Source: Siphonodentalium dalli
Lineage: Eukaryota > Mollusca > Scaphopoda > Gadilida > Siphonodentaliidae
Direction of reading: 5' to 3'
DNA: 64,000 nt
Assembly (NCBI GenBank): GCA_032622095.1
Contig: CP136065.1
Location: 241,035,530 to 241,099,529, forward strand
The first letter of the stretch is position 1. Every line of letters begins with the position of its first letter. Positions 11,816-56,464 of the stretch are shown here, piece after piece. The translations under genes were made by a program, and so were the position numbers. The notes under the pieces were generated by a model. The model searched no databases and was not told the origin of the DNA. It saw nothing but the letters and a program-made list of their open reading frames with translations.

Positions 11816-12853
11816 AAATGTTCGTAAACCAGGCTATTTTATTAAATGTTTGTAAACCAGGCTATTTTATTAAATGTTTGTAAACCAGGCTATTTTATTA
11901 AATGTTCGTAAACCAGGCTATTTTATTAAATGTTCGTAAACCAGGCTATTTTATTAAATGTTCGTAAACCAGGCTATTTTATTAAATTCTCGTAAACCAG
12001 GCTATTTTATTAAATGTTTGTAAACCAGGCTATTTTATTAAATGATCGTAAACCAGGCTATTTTATTAAATGATCGTAAACCAGGCTATTTTATTAAATG
12101 TTCGTAAACCAGGCTATTTTATTAAAATGTTCGTAAACCAGGCTATTTTATTAAATGATCGTAAACCTGGCTATTTTATTAAATGTTTGTAAACCAGGCT
12201 ATTTTATTAAAATGTTCGTAACCAGGCTATTTTATTAAATGTTTGTAAACCAGGCTATTTTATTAAATGTTTGTAAACCAGGCTATTTTATTAAATGTTT
12301 GTAAACCAGGCTATTTTATTAAATGTTCGTAAACCAGGCTATTTTATTAAATGTTTGTAAACCAGGCTATTTTATTAAATGTTTGTAAACCAGGCTATTT
12401 TATTAAATGATCGTAAACCAGGCTATTTTATTAAATGTTTGTAAACCAGGCTATTTTATTAAATGTTCGTAAACCAGGCTATTTTATTAAATGATCGTAA
12501 ACCAGGCTATTTTATTAAATGTTTGTAAACCAGGCTATTTTATTAAATGTTTGTAAACCAGGCTATTTTATTAAATGTTTGTAAACCAGGCTATTTTATT
12601 AAATGTTCGTAAACCAGGCTATTTTATTAAATGATCGTAAACCAGGCTATTTTATTAAATGTTTGTAAACCAGGCTATTTTATTAAATGTTTGTAAACCA
12701 GGCTATTTTATTAAATGTTTGTAAACCAGGCTATTTTATTAAATGTTTGTAAACCAGGCTATTTTATTAAATGTTTGTAAACCAGGCTATTTTATTAAAT
12801 GATCGTAAACCAGGCTATTTTATTAAAATGTTCGTAAACCAGGCTGTTTTATT
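11816..12853. repeat. 28-bp minisatellite, about 37 copies
   Basis: Tandem copies of a 28-bp unit (GTAAACCAGGCTATTTTATT plus AAATGTTC or a variant), with a few 27/29-bp units. Variant positions are mainly TTC/TTT/ATC before GTAAACC. The array ends about 38 bp before the acceptor of the NPEPPS exon at 12891, so it fills the branch-point region of this intron. Confidence 0.95.
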
Positions 12854-39891: not shown

Positions 39892-39965
39892 CTAATTGAG
39901 AATGGTCTTCCATACCTTATGTTTAGGACATAGCACTGAAAAGTTGTCTTCATCAAAATAGCAAC
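39892..39965 (-). CDS. TCF20/RAI1-like: TCF20/RAI1-like protein, last recognised exon (end of ePHD finger)
   Basis: Follows acceptor TTGTTTTTGCAG on the minus strand. Its first two bases complete a split glycine codon, then CYFDEDNFSVLCPKHK. This supplies the last Cys and the Cys-x2-His ligands of the extended PHD finger, in the usual ..C...ENFS..CPKHK form of RAI1 and TCF20. Two endings are possible: splicing at AAG|GTATGG (39916/39915), or reading on seven codons (VWKTILN) to the TAG at 39894-39892. I show the read-through end; if spliced, the coding part ends at 39916 and a further exon is missing. Phase 1 entry agrees with exon 3. Confidence 0.85.
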
Positions 39966-41625: not shown

Positions 41626-42177
41626 ATTTATAGCTTTAAACAAAGCTCTAGGTGTGTTGATGTGCAGCTACTAGTATGATTTAGCAAATAAAAGACACAC
41701 TTTTGAAACACAAATCAATTTGTCAATACAACAATCAAACAGAATTCTCTTGTATCAGGACTAAAAACTATATATGCTACAGCAAAACCAGTGGAAAATA
41801 ACGAAACACAAGAGATTTTGTAAGTTTATATGCCTTTGATAGTCTTACTGAAGGAATACAAATTGTATGCCTTCTGCAGACATTTTACACAGCAGATAAA
41901 CAATGAGTTAATTTTACTTTAATAACACATCAAATCTAACAGACTTTAAATCTAATACACCTTTAAAGTTGTAGAATGCTAAAAACAGACCTAGACCTGG
42001 TTTTTCTTTCTGATGCTGTATGACGCAATAATTTATATCACTTCGGTAAGCTTTTAAAAGTCATACACAGTCCATATACCAGTATTTCATATATTTTCCG
42101 ACTGGAGTATACAGTATAAATAAACATGGAGCAGATTGTTTTCAATCATTAAGTAGGTCATTTAAAGCAATAATTTT

Positions 42178-42804
42178 ACCTTCACATCGAGCACATACAA
42201 CATGATATTTTTACCTTCACATCGAACACATACAACATGATATTTTTACCTTCACATCGAACACATACAACATGGTATTTTTACCTTCACATCAAACACA
42301 TACAACATGATATTTTTACCTTCACATCGAGCACATACAACATGATATTTTTACCTTCACATCGAGCACATACAACATGGTATTTTTACCTTCACATCGA
42401 ACACATACAACATGATATTTTTGCCTTCACATCGAGCACATACAACATGGTATTTTTACCTTCACATCGAGCACATACAACATGATATTTATACCTTCAC
42501 ATCGAGCACATACAACATGGTATTTTTACCTTCACATCGAGCACATACAACATGATATTTTTACCTTCACATCGAGCACATACAACATGGTATTTTTACC
42601 TTCACATCGAGCACATACAACATGATATTTTTACCTTCACATCGAGCACATACAACATGGTATTTTTACCTTCACATTGAGCACATACAACATATTTTTA
42701 CCTTCACATCGAGCACATACAACATGGTATTTTTACCTTCACATTGAGCACATACAACATGGTATTTTTACCTTCACATCGAGCACAGACAACATGGTAT
42801 TTTT
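42178..42804 (-). repeat. 35-bp minisatellite made from an exon end and its splice donor, 18 copies
   Basis: Seventeen 35-bp units and one 32-bp unit (627 bp in all). On the minus strand each unit contains AATACCATGTTGT, ATGTGCTCGATGTGAAG and GTAAAA, that is, the last codons of exon 3 of the TCF20/RAI1-like gene plus its splice donor. The first unit (42770-42804) is the real exon end, distinguished by GTCTGT where intronic units have GTATGT. Other variants are CGA/TGA-type changes (CATCGAGC, CATCGAAC, CATTGAGC) and CATGG/CATGA. Confidence 0.95.
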
Positions 42805-42865
42805 GTAGACAGCCTTTATGTAAGCAGCCCAGAGTAGCACCAGATTCTTTGCAAATAGAGCAGTT
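42772..42865 (-). CDS. TCF20/RAI1-like: TCF20/RAI1-like protein, exon 3 (middle of ePHD finger)
   Basis: 94-bp exon after acceptor ATATCTCTTTCAG, ending GTGAAG|GTAAAA, phase 0 in and phase 1 out. It encodes NCSICKESGATLGCLHKGCL and QKYHVVCARCE: the second zinc-binding half of the extended PHD finger, with Cys-x2-Cys, Cys-x4-Cys and His-x3-Cys spacings typical of the RAI1/TCF20/PHF14 group. It joins exon 2 (...KVAAIN) and exon 4 (GCYFDEDN...) in frame. The donor is the first of 18 tandem near-copies. A 65-codon frame from 42936 (minus) is out of frame with it. Confidence 0.9.
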
Positions 42866-44479: not shown

Positions 44480-45770
44480 TCCACCAGCATTGAAAAGACT
44501 ATAAAAGAAACAGTCGGTAACAACATCAAAAAAGCAAGACGAACAGCTTACAGCCTCATGCCGTAGGATTTCACGGAGTTAATGGTCTTGATCCCATCAG
44601 CTGTCTACATCTATACCAGACTTACATTGTTCCTGTACTGCTGTATGGTTGTGAGGTCCTACAACCTCAAGGATCCAACCTACTTAGCCTTGAGATGTTC
44701 CAGAAAAAAAATGCTTAAGAGAATAATGTCTCTACCAACCAGAGTAGCTGATCTCGCTACCTACATCCTCTCTGGAATACTTCCTATTGAAGCACAACTG
44801 GACATCTGGATACTCTGCCTATATTATAATGTCTGCACACAAACTGATAACAGCCTTGAAAAACAGATTGCCGAACGTCAAATCACAATGAAATCTGCCG
44901 ACAGCTCCAGCTCGTTTGTAGCTACAAGTAGACTGTTGTTAAAATATGAACTACCAAATGCAAGAGATCTACACCAGAGCCCATTCTCCAAAACACAATG
45001 GAAAAACATGACTAAGTATGCTGTTTCCAAATATTGGACAAACCAAATTTCTGAGCAAGCCAGCATCTCTAAAAGCCTCACACACCTGAGTACTCATGCT
45101 TTCCAGCCTGGTAAACCGCATCCAATACTCAAAGCTGACATCAACCCAGAAAAAGCTGCTGCAATGCTTGCTATTCGACTACAACTAGCAACAATGACCT
45201 ACAACTTAGAAAGCCGTCATTACACCAAGACTAAGAATGGAACCATATGCAGACTTTGTGGAGACGAAGACATACATCACTTCCTTCTGACCTGCTCAAC
45301 TCTAAAAGATACCAGAGAAAAAGTAACGACTCTGCTCACACATGAATACCAACTACTATGCTCTGCTGACTTTACTCGTCTCAATGATCAGCAGAAGATA
45401 CAAGCCATCTTAGATATCACTAAATTGGATCCTTCCATCAAAACAATCAGCAGTATGTTTAACCTGGCAGCCAATCGATACTGCTACTTGATGCACTGCT
45501 CCAGAAAGAAGAGATTCATCGACATGGCCAGAGAAACACGAACTAACAAAAGGATCAATGGAATCCAGGCACACACATAAATATCTATTTTATACAGCTG
45601 TTTTATACAGTCATTAACAGATCTCAAGCTGATCTCGGGGAAACTTGTACATATGAAACCCATTTGAATGTACATATCTGGACTATATTTTAACTACATG
45701 TACCTGGTTACTCCAAAAGGAGGTTACTCAAATGTGAGTGTAAAGAAGAAGTAAGTAAGTAAGTAAGCTT
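44480..45770 (+). pseudogene. 5'-truncated non-LTR retrotransposon ORF2 3' part
   Basis: Plus strand, antisense to the TCF20/RAI1-like gene, in its intron 2. The 332-codon frame (44582-45580) carries the post-RT region with IMSLPTRVADLATYILSGIL and a Cys/His knuckle CRLCGDEDIHHFLLTC, typical of the C-terminus of non-LTR polyproteins. Upstream of an A run near 44703 the similarity continues in a different frame (LYQTYIVPVLLYGCEVLQ), so there is a frameshift; an in-frame stop lies at about 44566. The first 40 residues of the long frame are therefore spurious. A (TAAG)n tail at 45751-45768 marks the 3' end. 5' truncation suggests target-primed insertion. Not functional. Confidence 0.85.
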
Positions 45771-46558
45771 ATAAGTATGGAAGAAAACAATACAAACAAT
45801 TAATCTAGGGCATTTGACAGTCGGAGCATAGCAATGGTAAAATACTCTAATGATCTATATCGCTATAATTATGATATCGCCTGAATGGTCTGTTCTAAAA
45901 ATAGTAACAATTATATGTCCCTTTTAATCATCTCATTTTCTAATTTGAAAATCAATATTAATTGAAAGAAGCATTCCCAGACATGTCATATCCAGGGCTT
46001 ATTTGATACGGGTAACATTTTTTTTTTAGATTTAAACATTCCGAGATTAAATTTACATCATCACGGATCACGGGAGAAAATTAAATTACATAGCTCTGAG
46101 GATATTTATTAAACTGTGAAATTCTTAAGAGAAACATGATTATCTGAATGGTCTTACTGATTCATGAGTAATTCAATTTTTCCACATTTCCCCTAAATAA
46201 AATTCATCTGATTTTATGATTGTCAATCAAATGGTATGAATGAGATTCAATAAACCCTTTCCCTATGTTTTCTCGATAACACAATATACCAATTACAGTT
46301 ATTAGACTATACAGTTCAGCACTCGCATAGTACAATTTCAACAGTTCAATGGACTGAATGGTTACAAATTTGAATGTCTATTTACTTGGATAAAATACGA
46401 CAGAAAATCACCATTTTCATCCTACTCTTCCAACCAAACCCATCTAAATCTATTCTTAACGTTTAGTCCTGTAAAAATATAGCATCCAATTACTAGACAC
46501 TCAAGAGTACTCCATTCTGTGTTATAATTAGTAAATTACATGTACAAGGACAACTTAC
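45771..46558 (-). other. Intron 2 of the TCF20/RAI1-like gene, part next to exon 2
   Basis: AT-rich, with no open frame or repeat structure recognised. The exon 2 donor GTAAGT starts at 46558. Confidence 0.5.
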
Positions 46559-49500
46559 ATTAATAGCAGCCACTTTGATAGTTTCCTCCAGTCCATATAT
46601 CTTGGATCCGACAAGAAAGACACCATGCGACCAGACGACACAATCCGAATGGAACCAATATTCCTTTGATTTATCAAAGCTGTCATTCTCCGATCCAGAT
46701 TTCGATCTAGTTCGTTTGCGAGTTCTTTCTTTACCACTAGGCCCTGCCTTAGGTGTTCGCTCTTTGCTGCTAGGTCCTGCATGCGAATCACTGCTAGGCC
46801 CTGCCTTGGGTGTTCGTTCTTTACTACTAGGTCCTGCATGCGAATCAGTACTTTTATCACAGACAGCTGATGGGTCAAACCCTTCTAAGTGATAAGGACC
46901 CATCAAATCACCCAGTGTACTAAAGCAACTATATTTCCGACACAACGCACACACCCATTCTGTCTCGGGCACAATTTTACTAGTCGGCAGAAACACAGAT
47001 TTATCACTACGAATATTCGATAACTGAAAAGTGGTAAACTTATTTGAAGATAAACTCGTTCGTTTATCATGTTTACCCAAGTCATCATGACCTTGATTCA
47101 CTATTTTACACATTTCAGGATTATCACGTGGGCCCTGAATTCGTATGAATGGTCCCGGAGCAGAAACTTCCTTCTTACGTTTTCCTTGATTAAGATGCTC
47201 GAGGCTTTTCTGAAGTTTAAATTCCTCTAATGCATCTGATGAAACAGCAGCTGCTTTATGTGTTTTATATTTCCTTTTTCCTTTGGACTTCAAATCCTTC
47301 CCTTTCGGTGAACAGGAACGCCTATCTTTTTTCACTTTTACTGAGGAAAGTTGATCACATTTAACTTTTTGAATTGACGAGGGCAGTTTAGCATTAACAC
47401 TTGAGTCGGGCGGGTTTTTTGTCGGGGTTTCCACCTTTCTGTTCACAACTGATACCTTCAATGGTTGAACTTTTTTATCTGTGAAGATATCATCACTTGG
47501 CAACTTGACAACTTTCTTGTCCAAATCAATCTTTGTGAAAGTCCATTGTGAGGTAACCTGTGCCATATCGGAGAGAGAAGGACGGATCAGTTTTATTTTT
47601 GGGTTATATGCTTCACACGTCAGTTTTGGATCCTTGTTATAAGCTTTTGAATTCGACGAACAATCTTCTTTTTTAATACTAGTACTTTCAATCTTTAAAT
47701 CACTGTTCGCAGTAGCTTTACGTTTTTTGTGCTTATACTTTGTACTGTCTACTGTTACTGGAGACTCTTCCTTTATTGACACGTCCGATTCCTTTGAAAC
47801 AGATATATCAGCAGGATTCATTTCCGAAATTTCAATTGTTGGTTTTGAAGTCACTTTCGAATTGAATTTATCAGACTTCCTAGTTCGTTTTATCGGTTCA
47901 AATTCTTCATCATCAAGAAAATCTCCCTCGAACCAAGAATCGTTAGTAAGGCTTTCAGCAATCTTACGCTTATTCCGCGGTCGAAGACATCTCTTATTGG
48001 CATCTTCTTTCTTTCGTTTTCCAGCATTCCTCGGAGAAATATCACGTCTACAATTCAACTTATCTGACGACTGACTTCCGGGGTTAGAACTTGTATCAGA
48101 TGGATTTGACGGCCTACTTCCTGGCTTAGAACTCGTTTGAGAAGGATTATCTATTTTACCCGCAACTGGCCTGAATTTCGCAGGCTTCAATATATTCTTT
48201 TTGGCAAATTTTTTCTTGCTGTGTGAGGTATAGGTTTTGAAAAGTCCTTTTTTATACTTCGATGGTCTCTTAGTATTAAAATACACATCAAATGCATCTA
48301 CTTCATCTGTGCAATTATCAGTCTTCTCTTGAGAGATGTCATCAAAAGTTACATCCGCAACTTCTGTTTCTTCTGGAAGTTCTGGTTCATCCACAGTATC
48401 ACAAGGAACGGTTTCAATCTCGCCAGTTGTTTCATTCAAAACGTCAACATATTTCACATCACTTGCAGAAGATGATTGAGCAACCGTTTGGTCAGGATTT
48501 GATGTCTCAGCATCTTTCCCATGATCAGTAGAATCCTTATCGACTAGACTATTTTTAACATTTCCAGGGCTAGCTGCCGAGTCATTTGTATCTTCAGTAT
48601 CTTTATCGGTTAAAATGTCTTCTGCGATGAAGTCATTTGACTCCTCCGAATAACCATCATCGTCTAGCAGAGTGCCAGTGTCCCGGATTGTTTGTTCCTT
48701 TTTCACGGACTCATCGCTCCCACTTGCTGACAATTTGCGAGTTTTCTCTGCAGCGGAGGAATCTTCGGTAGCACCTAATGCTTTTGAATCGTCATCACAT
48801 GTTGGTGTTTTAACTGAATTGTCTGATCCTATGGATGATCTGTCAGCCTGTTTTTCAGCAGCTGCAGCTGCCAAATAATTCATCGTTTTTGTATAGCGTT
48901 TTTTTGGAGTGATGTTATGTCCCATTGGAAAGCGATCTTTTGGGTAATTTAGAAGAGCATCTTTGGTAGTATCAACTGCATTGTCAGTGATTGTTTTGGA
49001 AAAACTAGAGGTCGAACTGAAATCAGTTGTTGGTTTCAAAAAGACGCTTTCATTTTTAATATTTTCCTTGTCAGCTTTTGAATCCAATTGTTTATCCGAA
49101 ACATTTTGCACAACCGACGCTATTTCACCAGATTCAGGAAAACACACAGATCCACTCTCATCTTTCTTCCTTGGGTTTTCACTCAAATCAGCACTAGAAA
49201 GTGAGATTGAATTTTCATTGATAGCACTTGGTTTGTCTGCATTCATGGAGGTAGTATCAGGCTCTGAATTAATTTTCGCCAAAACAGAATCAATATCTGA
49301 TCTAATCAGATCAACACCTGATGAAGTAGAATCTAATTTTTGAAGGTCAGCATCCACAGAACTTTTCTCGCTTTCTCCGCTCTTCCCGGAGAAAGATCCT
49401 TCACCGAAGCTCGGAAAAGCGGATGCAGAAATTTGATCCGTGTAACTTGATATATACGAACCGAAAGGAGAATCGCTTGTTCGCGACCCATATCCTCTCA

Positions 49501-50848
49501 GATCCGTCAAGTCCGAAAGCTCGTCAATCTGTGAGGTTAAAGTTGAAGAAAGATTTTCTGTACAAGTACTAGTAATTAACTTTGAATAGTCAACAGTACA
49601 CACCTTATAAGCTGTTGAAAGTTCTGGCATTACATGAGGCATACACAGCTGGTTGTTGTGTGAAAACGGTAGCATATTATCAGCGGCATTAGTTGACGAC
49701 ACTGATGAGTCGCCAATGATACTCTTCGGGTCAACAACGTCCTTTTCAGGAAGCATGGACAATTTTTGAAGTGATTGTAATGGATTATTTGTCGATGCAT
49801 ATTTGCCATTCAGGAACGACATGTCCATCATATCTGTAGAGTTATGTAAGTGAACAGGGCTTTGGTTGTGGAAACGTGACGTCGGATAAGGCGAGCCACG
49901 GTGGCTATGCGGTGAGCAGGAAACTGGTGAAAACTGGTTCTGTGAATTGTGAGTCGGAGAGTTCAGCAATCCAGAGGTTGAATGTTGTTGATGAGCGGCT
50001 GAATTCGACGAACTATGAAGCGAGCCAGTCGATTTCATAGAATGAGTCGATCCAGTGGGCGACGCTATAGGCTGAATGCCATGAGGTGATCGCAATCCAG
50101 CTATACCGGGAGGCGTTGGCCCCGGTGATCTGACGCTATGAGCAGGACTGTGCAAGGACGCTGGGCTATCATTAGCAGCGTTTGGTCCACTATGGTGTGA
50201 GGAAGGACTTGTAACCATCATCGGACTAGTGGGAGATCGTCTTATGCTACCCTGACTATGAGGTCCCGTCGCAGCATAAGGATAACCTCCCATTCCTCCA
50301 TGTTGATTCATTGTGTTGCCATGCATGTTGTTGAATGGCGGAGACTGCTGTGGAATTTTGTAGCTACATCCTCGTTCTTTGTTCAGCGGGACCTGCACAG
50401 AGTTATTATGGGGATAACTCGCCTGTGTCATATGCAGGATATTATTCGCGATCTCCTGCGGGTTCTGAGGACTGAGGCCACGCATGTGAGGGTGCGACAT
50501 AACCACATTTTGCGACGGATGGTAATTCTGGCCACTATGCTGCTGGCTCTGCGGATGTCCAGATATTTGCTGTTGCGGTCTTGGCGGCTGATTCATCTGC
50601 TGTTGCCTATGTCCTTGTTGGGACACATTGAAAGCATTGCCGCGGCTGTTTTCAGGCCGCATGTTCTGCAGTCCGTAAGTTGATGGAAACTCGCCCCCAT
50701 ACTGTGGATTCATGTACATGGGGTTCTGAAGAGGCATACCATAGGGTCCACCAGTGTTGCCTTGGTAATACTGCTGCATGAGTGCCGATGCATTCTGATC
50801 GTAGCCATATGGATGCTGGCCTGCCATATCAGCTGCATTCATATTTAT
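46559..50848 (-). CDS. TCF20/RAI1-like: TCF20/RAI1-like nucleosome-binding protein, giant exon 2
   Basis: 1430 codons in one uninterrupted exon, from acceptor TTATTTTCCAG to donor ATTAAT|GTAAGT, phase 0 at both ends. An ATG lies three codons in (50842), but exon 1 joins in frame and is preferred. The translation has an N-terminal Gln/Pro/His/Tyr-rich part (MQQYYQGNTGGPYGM), Ser/Pro/His-rich tracts, KKRYTKTMNYLAAAAAEKQ near the middle, acidic patches, basic NLS-like clusters (KKEDANKRCLRPRNKRK) and, near residue 1330, the first half of an extended PHD finger: EWVCALCRKY...LGDLMGPY, a Ser-rich linker, then YWFHSDCVVWSHGV and LEETIKVAAIN. One large exon followed by small ePHD exons is the known layout of RAI1 and TCF20, chromatin regulators of nucleus-localised complexes. 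Full length would be about 1513-1520 residues, shorter than the vertebrate proteins. Confidence 0.92.
46736..46850 (-). repeat. 57-bp coding tandem repeat inside the ePHD linker
   Basis: Two near-identical 57-bp units plus a partial third, in frame with exon 2, read as SDSHAGPSSKERTPKAGPS twice and then GKERTRK. They lengthen the linker between the first Cys pair and the His-x2-Cys of the ePHD finger with Ser/Pro/Lys-rich sequence. The 57-bp length preserves the frame. Confidence 0.9.
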
Positions 50849-50876
50849 CTGGAAAATAAAGGATAAAAACTCTTAA

Positions 50877-52541: not shown

Positions 52542-52795
52542 CAAGCCTTGAAATAGTGTGTCTGTCATTTGCAGAATGAGGTCCCCAGAGGGTGAATTTA
52601 GTGATGCTACCCCGCATAGCGGGCTAGCATCACCAAATTCGCCCTCTGCGGACCTCATTCGGCTTACACCTCAGCAGAATGAGTTTCCCAGAGGGTGAAT
52701 TTGGTGATGCTAGCCCACTATGCGGGGTAGCATCACTAAATTCACCCTCTGGGAACATCATTCTGCAAATGACAGACACACTATTTCAAGGCTTG
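52542..52795. mobile_element. hAT-like GAATGAGGTCCCC palindrome element, 254 bp
   Basis: 8-bp duplication ATAACTGT at 52534-52541 and 52796-52803. Perfect-looking ends CAAGCCTTGAAATAGTGTG and CACACTATTTCAAGGCTTG. Two internal hairpins, the second the inverse of the first. No coding capacity. Confidence 0.9.
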
Positions 52796-56059: not shown

Positions 56060-56464
56060 TCTGTGACACAGGTAAGTAAAGGTACTGTATATGTCTAACT
56101 GCTGTGCTTCAGATTGAGAGAGTGCTCACTATTAGATGAACACATTTTAATTTGATCATCAGCATGTACAAGCCTTCAAATAGTGAGCCTGTCATTTGCA
56201 GAATGAGGTCCCCAGAGGGTGAATTTAGTGATGCTACCCCACATAGGAGGCTAGCATCACCAAATTCACCCTCTGGGGACCTCATTCTGCTTACACCTCA
56301 GCAGAATGAGGTTCCCCCGAGGGTGAATTTGGTGATGCTAGCCCACTATGCAGAGTAGCATCACTAAATTCACCCTCTGGGAACCTCATTCTGCAAATGA
56401 CAGGCTCACTATTTCAAGGCTTGAGCATGTATGGTCAGGAAAATTAAATTAATGCAGTACTACT
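55737..56464. repeat. Direct duplication, copy 1
   Basis: Starting AATAATGAAGCAAAGTGACT, this stretch (right part of the hAT element, its right flank and the following palindromic element) is repeated at 57804-58453 with small differences. Confidence 0.9.
56169..56423. mobile_element. hAT-like GAATGAGGTCCCC palindrome element, 255 bp
   Basis: 8-bp duplication AGCATGTA at 56161-56168 and 56424-56431, with ends CAAGCCTTCAAATAGTGAG and CTCACTATTTCAAGGCTTG. Two inverse hairpins. Confidence 0.9.

Follow-up and report, generated by a model that had tools for sequence, protein, structure and literature searches.

An intronic minisatellite repeating an ePHD exon end and its splice donor in a TCF20/RAI1-type gene of Siphonodentalium dalli

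In the scaphopod Siphonodentalium dalli, the end of a coding exon and the splice donor that follows it are repeated in tandem, 18 times, across an exon–intron boundary. The exon belongs to a gene for a TCF20/RAI1-type protein with an extended PHD (ePHD) finger, and the repeat is a minisatellite of period 35 bp at 42178..42804, on the minus strand of a 64,000-nucleotide stretch (assembly GCA_032622095.1, contig CP136065.1, positions 241,035,530 to 241,099,529). This whole stretch is referred to as the window, and coordinates are positions within it. Every unit corresponds to the 33 nt at the exon end followed by GT, except that unit 11 has GC. The likely explanation, in which we place considerable confidence, is that the array arose from a slippage-born duplication, that the first donor is the productive one, and that the remaining donors are decoys, leakily used, whose presence is a neutral or mildly harmful by-product.

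Tandem Repeats Finder (TRF) places the repeat at 42170-42804 (period 35, 18.2 copies, 94% matches, score 1109). Cut at the donor, the array resolves into 17 units of 35 nt and one of 32 nt, unit 4 (42668..42699), which carries a 3-nt deletion. Unit 1 (42770..42804) consists of the final 33 nt of the ePHD exon (42865-42772) and the GT of what appears to be the authentic donor, with the intron beginning at 42771. The 17 intronic units (42178..42769) carry decoy donors whose introns would start at 42736, 42701, 42669 and so on to 42179. A preliminary description of this DNA, made from the letters alone, had reported an 18-copy array repeating the exon end and its donor, and both TRF and the division of the units at the donor bear this out. 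Its picture of 18 closely similar donors holds for the 16 that read AAG|GTAAAA but not for donor 9 (AAG|GTATAA) or donor 11 (AAG|GCAAAA), so that the array contains 17 GT donors and one GC donor. All 16 minus-strand occurrences of the 9-mer AAGGTAAAA in the window lie inside the array, and the plus strand has none. Searching the window for the 35-mer with at most 3 mismatches returned 17 matches, none of them outside the array (the shorter unit 4, at 32 nt, was missed), and no match in 100 shuffles of the window.

In the genome (2,226,750,531 bases, 9 contigs), a 129-nt query gave 14 matches, all at this locus; the search scores the best candidates only, and absence of a match does not prove rarity. 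A dispersed satellite or a transposon-borne unit is thus unsupported by the reported matches, and a coding repeat was ruled out by the 10-12 stops in each of the three minus frames of the intronic units. Although assemblies can misjudge the length of arrays whose units are almost identical, an assembly artefact or mis-sized repeat is extremely improbable here: the variants among units are ordered, with the deletion in unit 4, a 70-bp alternation across units 5-14 and private changes in units 10, 11 and 15, and the array occupies a single locus in an assembly of nine contigs. The array and its exon-end units are real.

The host gene lies on the minus strand, where a big coding exon, a 94-nt exon and a further exon join to give 1,476 residues, down to CPKHK. 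The large exon (46559..50842; 4284 nt, 1,428 codons) is counted from the first methionine (MNAADM...) to its last base, ends in phase 0 and is followed by the donor AAT|GTAAGT; it sits in an open frame at 46493-50872, and its delimitation is further based on the donor, the coding-sequence length and the homologues. The ePHD exon, termed exon 3 (42772..42865), reads NCSICKESGATLGCLHKGCLQKYHVVCARCE plus 1 nt and is bounded by the acceptor CTCTTTCAG and the donor GAAG|GTAAAA. Exon 4 (39916..39965), with the acceptor TTGTTTTTGCAG, would complete the finger, with GCYFDEDNFSVLCPKHK spanning the join; it is then followed by a donor-like AAG|GTATGG or by read-through to VWKTILN and a stop. Because an acceptor-like CAG lies upstream of the start codon in the large exon, a 5' untranslated exon farther upstream is likely, and exon numbering is uncertain. 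As a narrow search derived from the tails of the homologues yielded a single weak and unconvincing candidate for a fifth exon, exon 4 may be the last exon of the gene.

Residues 1200-1476 have 19 homologues at E <= 0.001 among 774 candidates. Fourteen carry mollusc names, three carry mite names and two are unnamed (P0006 and P0019). The best E value belongs to a protein of Solemya velum (42% identity), and the names include transcription factor 20-like (Pecten maximus) and retinoic acid-induced protein 1 (Elysia marginata), one each. The C-terminal extended PHD finger is present in the host protein, with PF13771 scoring 47.4 bits against a cut-off of 29.1. The homologue names and PF13771 support the assignment to the TCF20/RAI1-type ePHD proteins, as had been proposed.

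On comparative grounds, donor 1 appears to be the right one, as splicing from it to exon 4 would restore a full-length ePHD finger. The 47.4-bit match is that of this join and spans positions 1-91 of the 91 in the profile, compared with 38.5 bits (1-71) for donor 2, 35.2 bits (1-88) for donors 3-18, which give one identical protein, and 37.8 bits (1-68) for the exon end alone; with the ePHD exon skipped, PF13771 gives no match. The alternative joins lose exon 4, and with it the last cysteine and histidine. In the donor-1 join, five residues separate the cysteine of YHxxC from the next conserved cysteine, as in 18 of the 19 homologues (six in P0010, counted by eye). Alignment with the KMT2D ePHD structure (chain 9yl3_K) is ungapped at both exon junctions and has one gap elsewhere per side. 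The Pfam join, the cysteine spacing and the KMT2D alignment together agree with the earlier placement of the exon 3 end and with the first donor as the one to use. Unit 1 encodes conserved-domain sequence, namely YH (or FH) followed by the cysteine and its spacing to the next cysteine, and the exon therefore supplied the unit.

Use of later donors retains 35, 70, 102, 137 and so on to 592 nt of the array. With donor 2, the frame is shifted into exon 4 and no stop occurs within the array. Donors 3-18 share a TGA in unit 3, so that 16 of the 17 alternative donors meet the same stop; the retained length is divisible by 3 for donors 4, 7, 10, 13 and 16, yet the TGA stays. The earlier statement that a downstream donor would truncate the finger through a TGA accordingly stands for donors 3-18 but not for donor 2. 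The stop lies 2 nt upstream of the exon 3/4 junction with donor 3, 34 nt with donor 4 and 69-524 nt with donors 5-18. Under the 50-55-nt rule for nonsense-mediated decay (NMD), which derives from mammals, the last of these distances predict NMD for the transcripts of 14 donors, 5-18.

The origin of the array was probably an ordinary mutational one, and the exon end was probably copied into the intron by chance. We infer that 35 bp, spanning the last bases of the ePHD exon and the first of its intron, were duplicated in tandem and then amplified into the intron, where 17 decoys now repeat the exon end and donor. Slippage that paired the exonic AAAAAT with the intronic GTAAAATT is the likely beginning. 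To either side of the original 35 bp, the sequences would have had AAAA in common when aligned in register and AAAAT when offset by one base, and shared sequence of this size is common for slippage. The preliminary description had instead nominated a 16-bp sequence shared by the exon side and the intron side, AAAAATACCATGTTGT, as the seed; this fails, because such identity is what the duplication itself creates, and the array borders share only AAAA(T). Growth would have proceeded partly by 70-bp dimers, because units 5-14 (42318..42667) alternate strictly between TACC and TATC at column 8, forming a 70-bp higher-order repeat. The intronic units differ from one another at a mean of 1.8 positions, and no significant rise in divergence from unit 1 with distance was found (column 17 excluded; Spearman 0.28, p 0.27). 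The gene would still function through predominant splicing at donor 1, and occasional use of donors 2-18 would yield frameshifted or truncated transcripts, largely prone to NMD.

The pattern of changes among the units carries little sign of selection. The private GTCTGT of the exonic unit, against GTATGT in the intronic ones, is confirmed as a C at column 17 in unit 1 and an A in all 17 intronic units. It had been interpreted as evidence that the exonic copy is under selection, a claim that fails because GTC and GTA both encode valine. A single mutation, either in the founding copy or in the exon, accounts for the difference. Changes in the donor 9-mer are not depleted either: of eight events, two fall in these 9 of 35 columns, in line with an expectation of about two (binomial P = 0.66 for two or fewer), the events being a hand count in which every variable site and the deletion represent one event each. 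The donors are thus neither visibly protected nor purged, as far as eight events, with little power, can tell.

To place the array in its genomic context, 20 stretches of 10 kb were sampled at round positions on nine contigs (200 kb). Arrays with a period of 20-100 bp and at least 4 copies number 21 in this sample and six in the window. Those with at least 10 copies number 10 (any TRF row) or seven (best-scoring row per place) in the sample, where they occupy seven or six of the 20 stretches, respectively, and two in the window. Long minisatellites are common in this genome. At the density of the arrays with at least 10 copies, a random 35-bp founding unit would cover a given donor with a probability of about 0.0012-0.0018, which gives 122-350 expected donor-covering arrays before selection for an assumed 100,000-200,000 introns, a rough figure that assumes random placement.

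Several results weigh against a chance-born array read through its first donor. All alternative joins exceed the Pfam cut-off of 29.1 bits, and donors 3-18 reach profile position 88, because most of the domain lies upstream. Pfam by itself is therefore a weak discriminator of donors, and it is the cysteine spacing and the lost exon 4 that carry the argument. The predicted U1 duplex energy of donor 1 is −6.8 kcal/mol, equal to that of 15 of the 17 decoys (donor 9, −5.7; donor 11, −3.0; donors of exons 2 and 4, −5.4 and −6.2 kcal/mol). Predicted RNA accessibility confers no advantage on donor 1 and is unsupported as the cause of its choice, as its value of 0.47 falls within the 0.39-0.92 of the decoys. 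By these models, donor 1 is not stronger than the decoys, and neither U1 pairing nor accessibility explains why it should win. Because the predicted pairing is equal for donor 1 and 15 of the decoys, it must be position, exon context or kinetics that decides between them. In general terms, such a choice can be explained by exon definition, which favours short exons, and by first-come recognition as transcription proceeds; both permit leakage to the nearest decoys. Furthermore, the motif [AC]AGGT[AG]A is found in none of the 21 sampled array units, and AGGT in two; a donor is therefore not a general feature of this genome's minisatellites, and the random-placement estimate is tentative. Finally, UGU occurs 72 times in the 592 intronic nucleotides, where the rest of the intron would predict about 17, and could bind a splicing regulator. 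This enrichment represents one event rather than 17, because all copies descend from one unit.

The UGU content raises the question of evolved dose control, in which the donor array, rich in UGU and in CELF/Bruno-like sites, would divert a regulated fraction of transcripts to unproductive, NMD-targeted splicing, with copy number as the setting. All 17 intronic units contain UUGUAUGU, which fits the Bruno response element, whereas unit 1, with C for A, lacks it. Outside the array, this 8-mer occurs six times on both strands of the window, and the degenerate element used occurs 100 times there. CELF1 is reported to bind UGU-N-UGU-type sites with variable spacers (PMC3737555). Such control would fit the 16 identical donors among 18, the premature stop from 16 of the 17 alternative donors and the presence of TTGTATGT in the 17 intronic units but not in unit 1. 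We nevertheless regard it as quite unlikely. The 17 copies of TTGTATGT trace to the single C/A difference, and unit 1 retains the same three UGU, so that a CELF-type reader need not separate it from the rest. Donors 9 and 11 have decayed, and the low mean difference among intronic units means that their likeness needs no selection. The suggestion in the preliminary description that the array could act as a splice-control device is unsupported, because donor changes are not depleted (2/8, a count of low power) and this genome has many long arrays; the liability that it named as the alternative may hold.

An alternative that bears on the protein itself is that the array exchanges sequence with the exon end, by conversion or unequal exchange, and thereby rewrites finger codons. 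Nowhere in the finger is the resemblance to 14 homologues (13 mollusc-named and one unnamed) lower than in the codons of the unit, where mean identity is 0.42 against 0.66 and 0.69 in the neighbouring stretches. This comparison used 14 of the 15 rows P0001-P0015, with P0010 dropped for its one extra residue; the search for residues never seen in homologues used 18 of the 19 rows, and its results in the 5' part of exon 3, where P0016-P0019 are one residue out of register, were excluded. The latter identified the second cysteine of CARCEG, in the exon end at 42772-42804, as an extra cysteine where all 18 compared homologues have Asp or Glu. However, the homologues are themselves less alike in this part (for the four tested, 0.46-0.63 here and 0.64-0.84 in the two neighbouring stretches), and unit 1 keeps a base found in none of the 17 neighbouring units. 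Rewriting of the exon end by the array is thus at most weakly suggested by these comparisons, and exchange is improbable as an explanation. Very improbable, too, is a combined version in which a self-copying exon end both exchanges sequence with the finger codons and lowers output according to copy number, through leaky use of up to 17 decoys. If true, one locus, perhaps a hypervariable one, would both mutate a chromatin reader and set the dose of that reader.

Splicing from unit to unit must also be considered. The GT of one unit could be joined to the AG of another, removing whole units and regenerating the same junction, as in intron gain by AGGT tandem duplication or in recursive splicing. 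AGGT is present in 17 of the 18 units. Earlier work reports intron gains by tandem duplication in fission yeast, at SPOG_01682 and SOCG_00815, where the repeat units hold the splice sites (PMC3629103), and at potato RdRp in a paper that also discusses tandem-repeat intron gain (PMC4974935). The present unit resembles those cases in containing AGGT, but its copies follow an exon end that already has a donor, and there is no pyrimidine tract at the unit end. The unit end appears to be a poor acceptor, with 10 pyrimidines in the 20 positions before AG (11 in unit 1), against 14/20 and 16/20 for exons 3 and 4. We therefore give unit-to-unit splicing a very small chance and retain slippage-born duplication with donor 1 as the productive site.

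The closest precedent is a human minisatellite described by Turri, Cuin and Porter in 1995 (Nucleic Acids Res 23:1854), known to us by its title; the gene is said to be 6-16 (IFI6/G1P3), and its unit is reportedly 12 nt long. As the title suggests for that kind of array, the tandem units here each have a donor-like site (17 GT and one GC in 18), and the array begins at what is, on comparative grounds, the authentic exon end. In contrast, the unit here is 35 bp, of which 33 nt are the coding exon of a conserved zinc finger, and a wrong choice damages the domain. In human genes within segmental duplications, minisatellites with mean units of 30 bp at the exon–intron boundary may change introns, and novel introns and repeat-retaining transcripts are reported there (PMC2812944), whereas the present array was examined in genomic DNA and its intron need not be new. 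Among the matches listed in the open-licence literature (titles and abstract openings), no other comparable case of a minisatellite or tandem repeat with splice donors or sites was found, which is not proof of absence.

Further features were recorded in the gene and around it. The large exon holds an in-frame tandem duplication at 46737-46847 (57 bp, 19 codons, 1.9 copies). It yields DSHAGPSSKERTPKAGPSS twice, with G as the last residue of the second copy, in the part of the finger region that links the first CxxC to the HxxC. A protein search for a paralogue without the array returned, besides the three exons of the gene itself, one match on contig C7 (E 5.6e-9, 32% identity) and one on contig C8 (E 6.5e-5, 47% identity). 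The first is an ePHD-like coding stretch in one open frame (C7:94773244-94773468; 32% identity over query residues 3-76) and remains a candidate diverged paralogue. The plus-strand open reading frame 44567-45580 (337 aa) was uninformative, its sole homologue being unnamed at 31% identity; a mobile-element remnant is a guess. Elsewhere in the window, a 28-bp minisatellite occupies 11816-12853 (37 copies, 95% matches). Two arrays of about 162-166 bp, at 1562-2186 and 2361-2791, have consensus units that by eye are reverse complements, forming an inverted pair, and nearly the same 103-104-bp tandem unit recurs at 52571-52763 and 56198-56394, about 3.6 kb apart.

Nothing yet supports a function for the array, and its consequence is unusual and testable. 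Eighteen donors follow one exon, 16 of them identical over nine bases, and the first alone appears productive. The locus thus offers a clean natural assay of choice among near-identical donors, with copy number as a possible variable.
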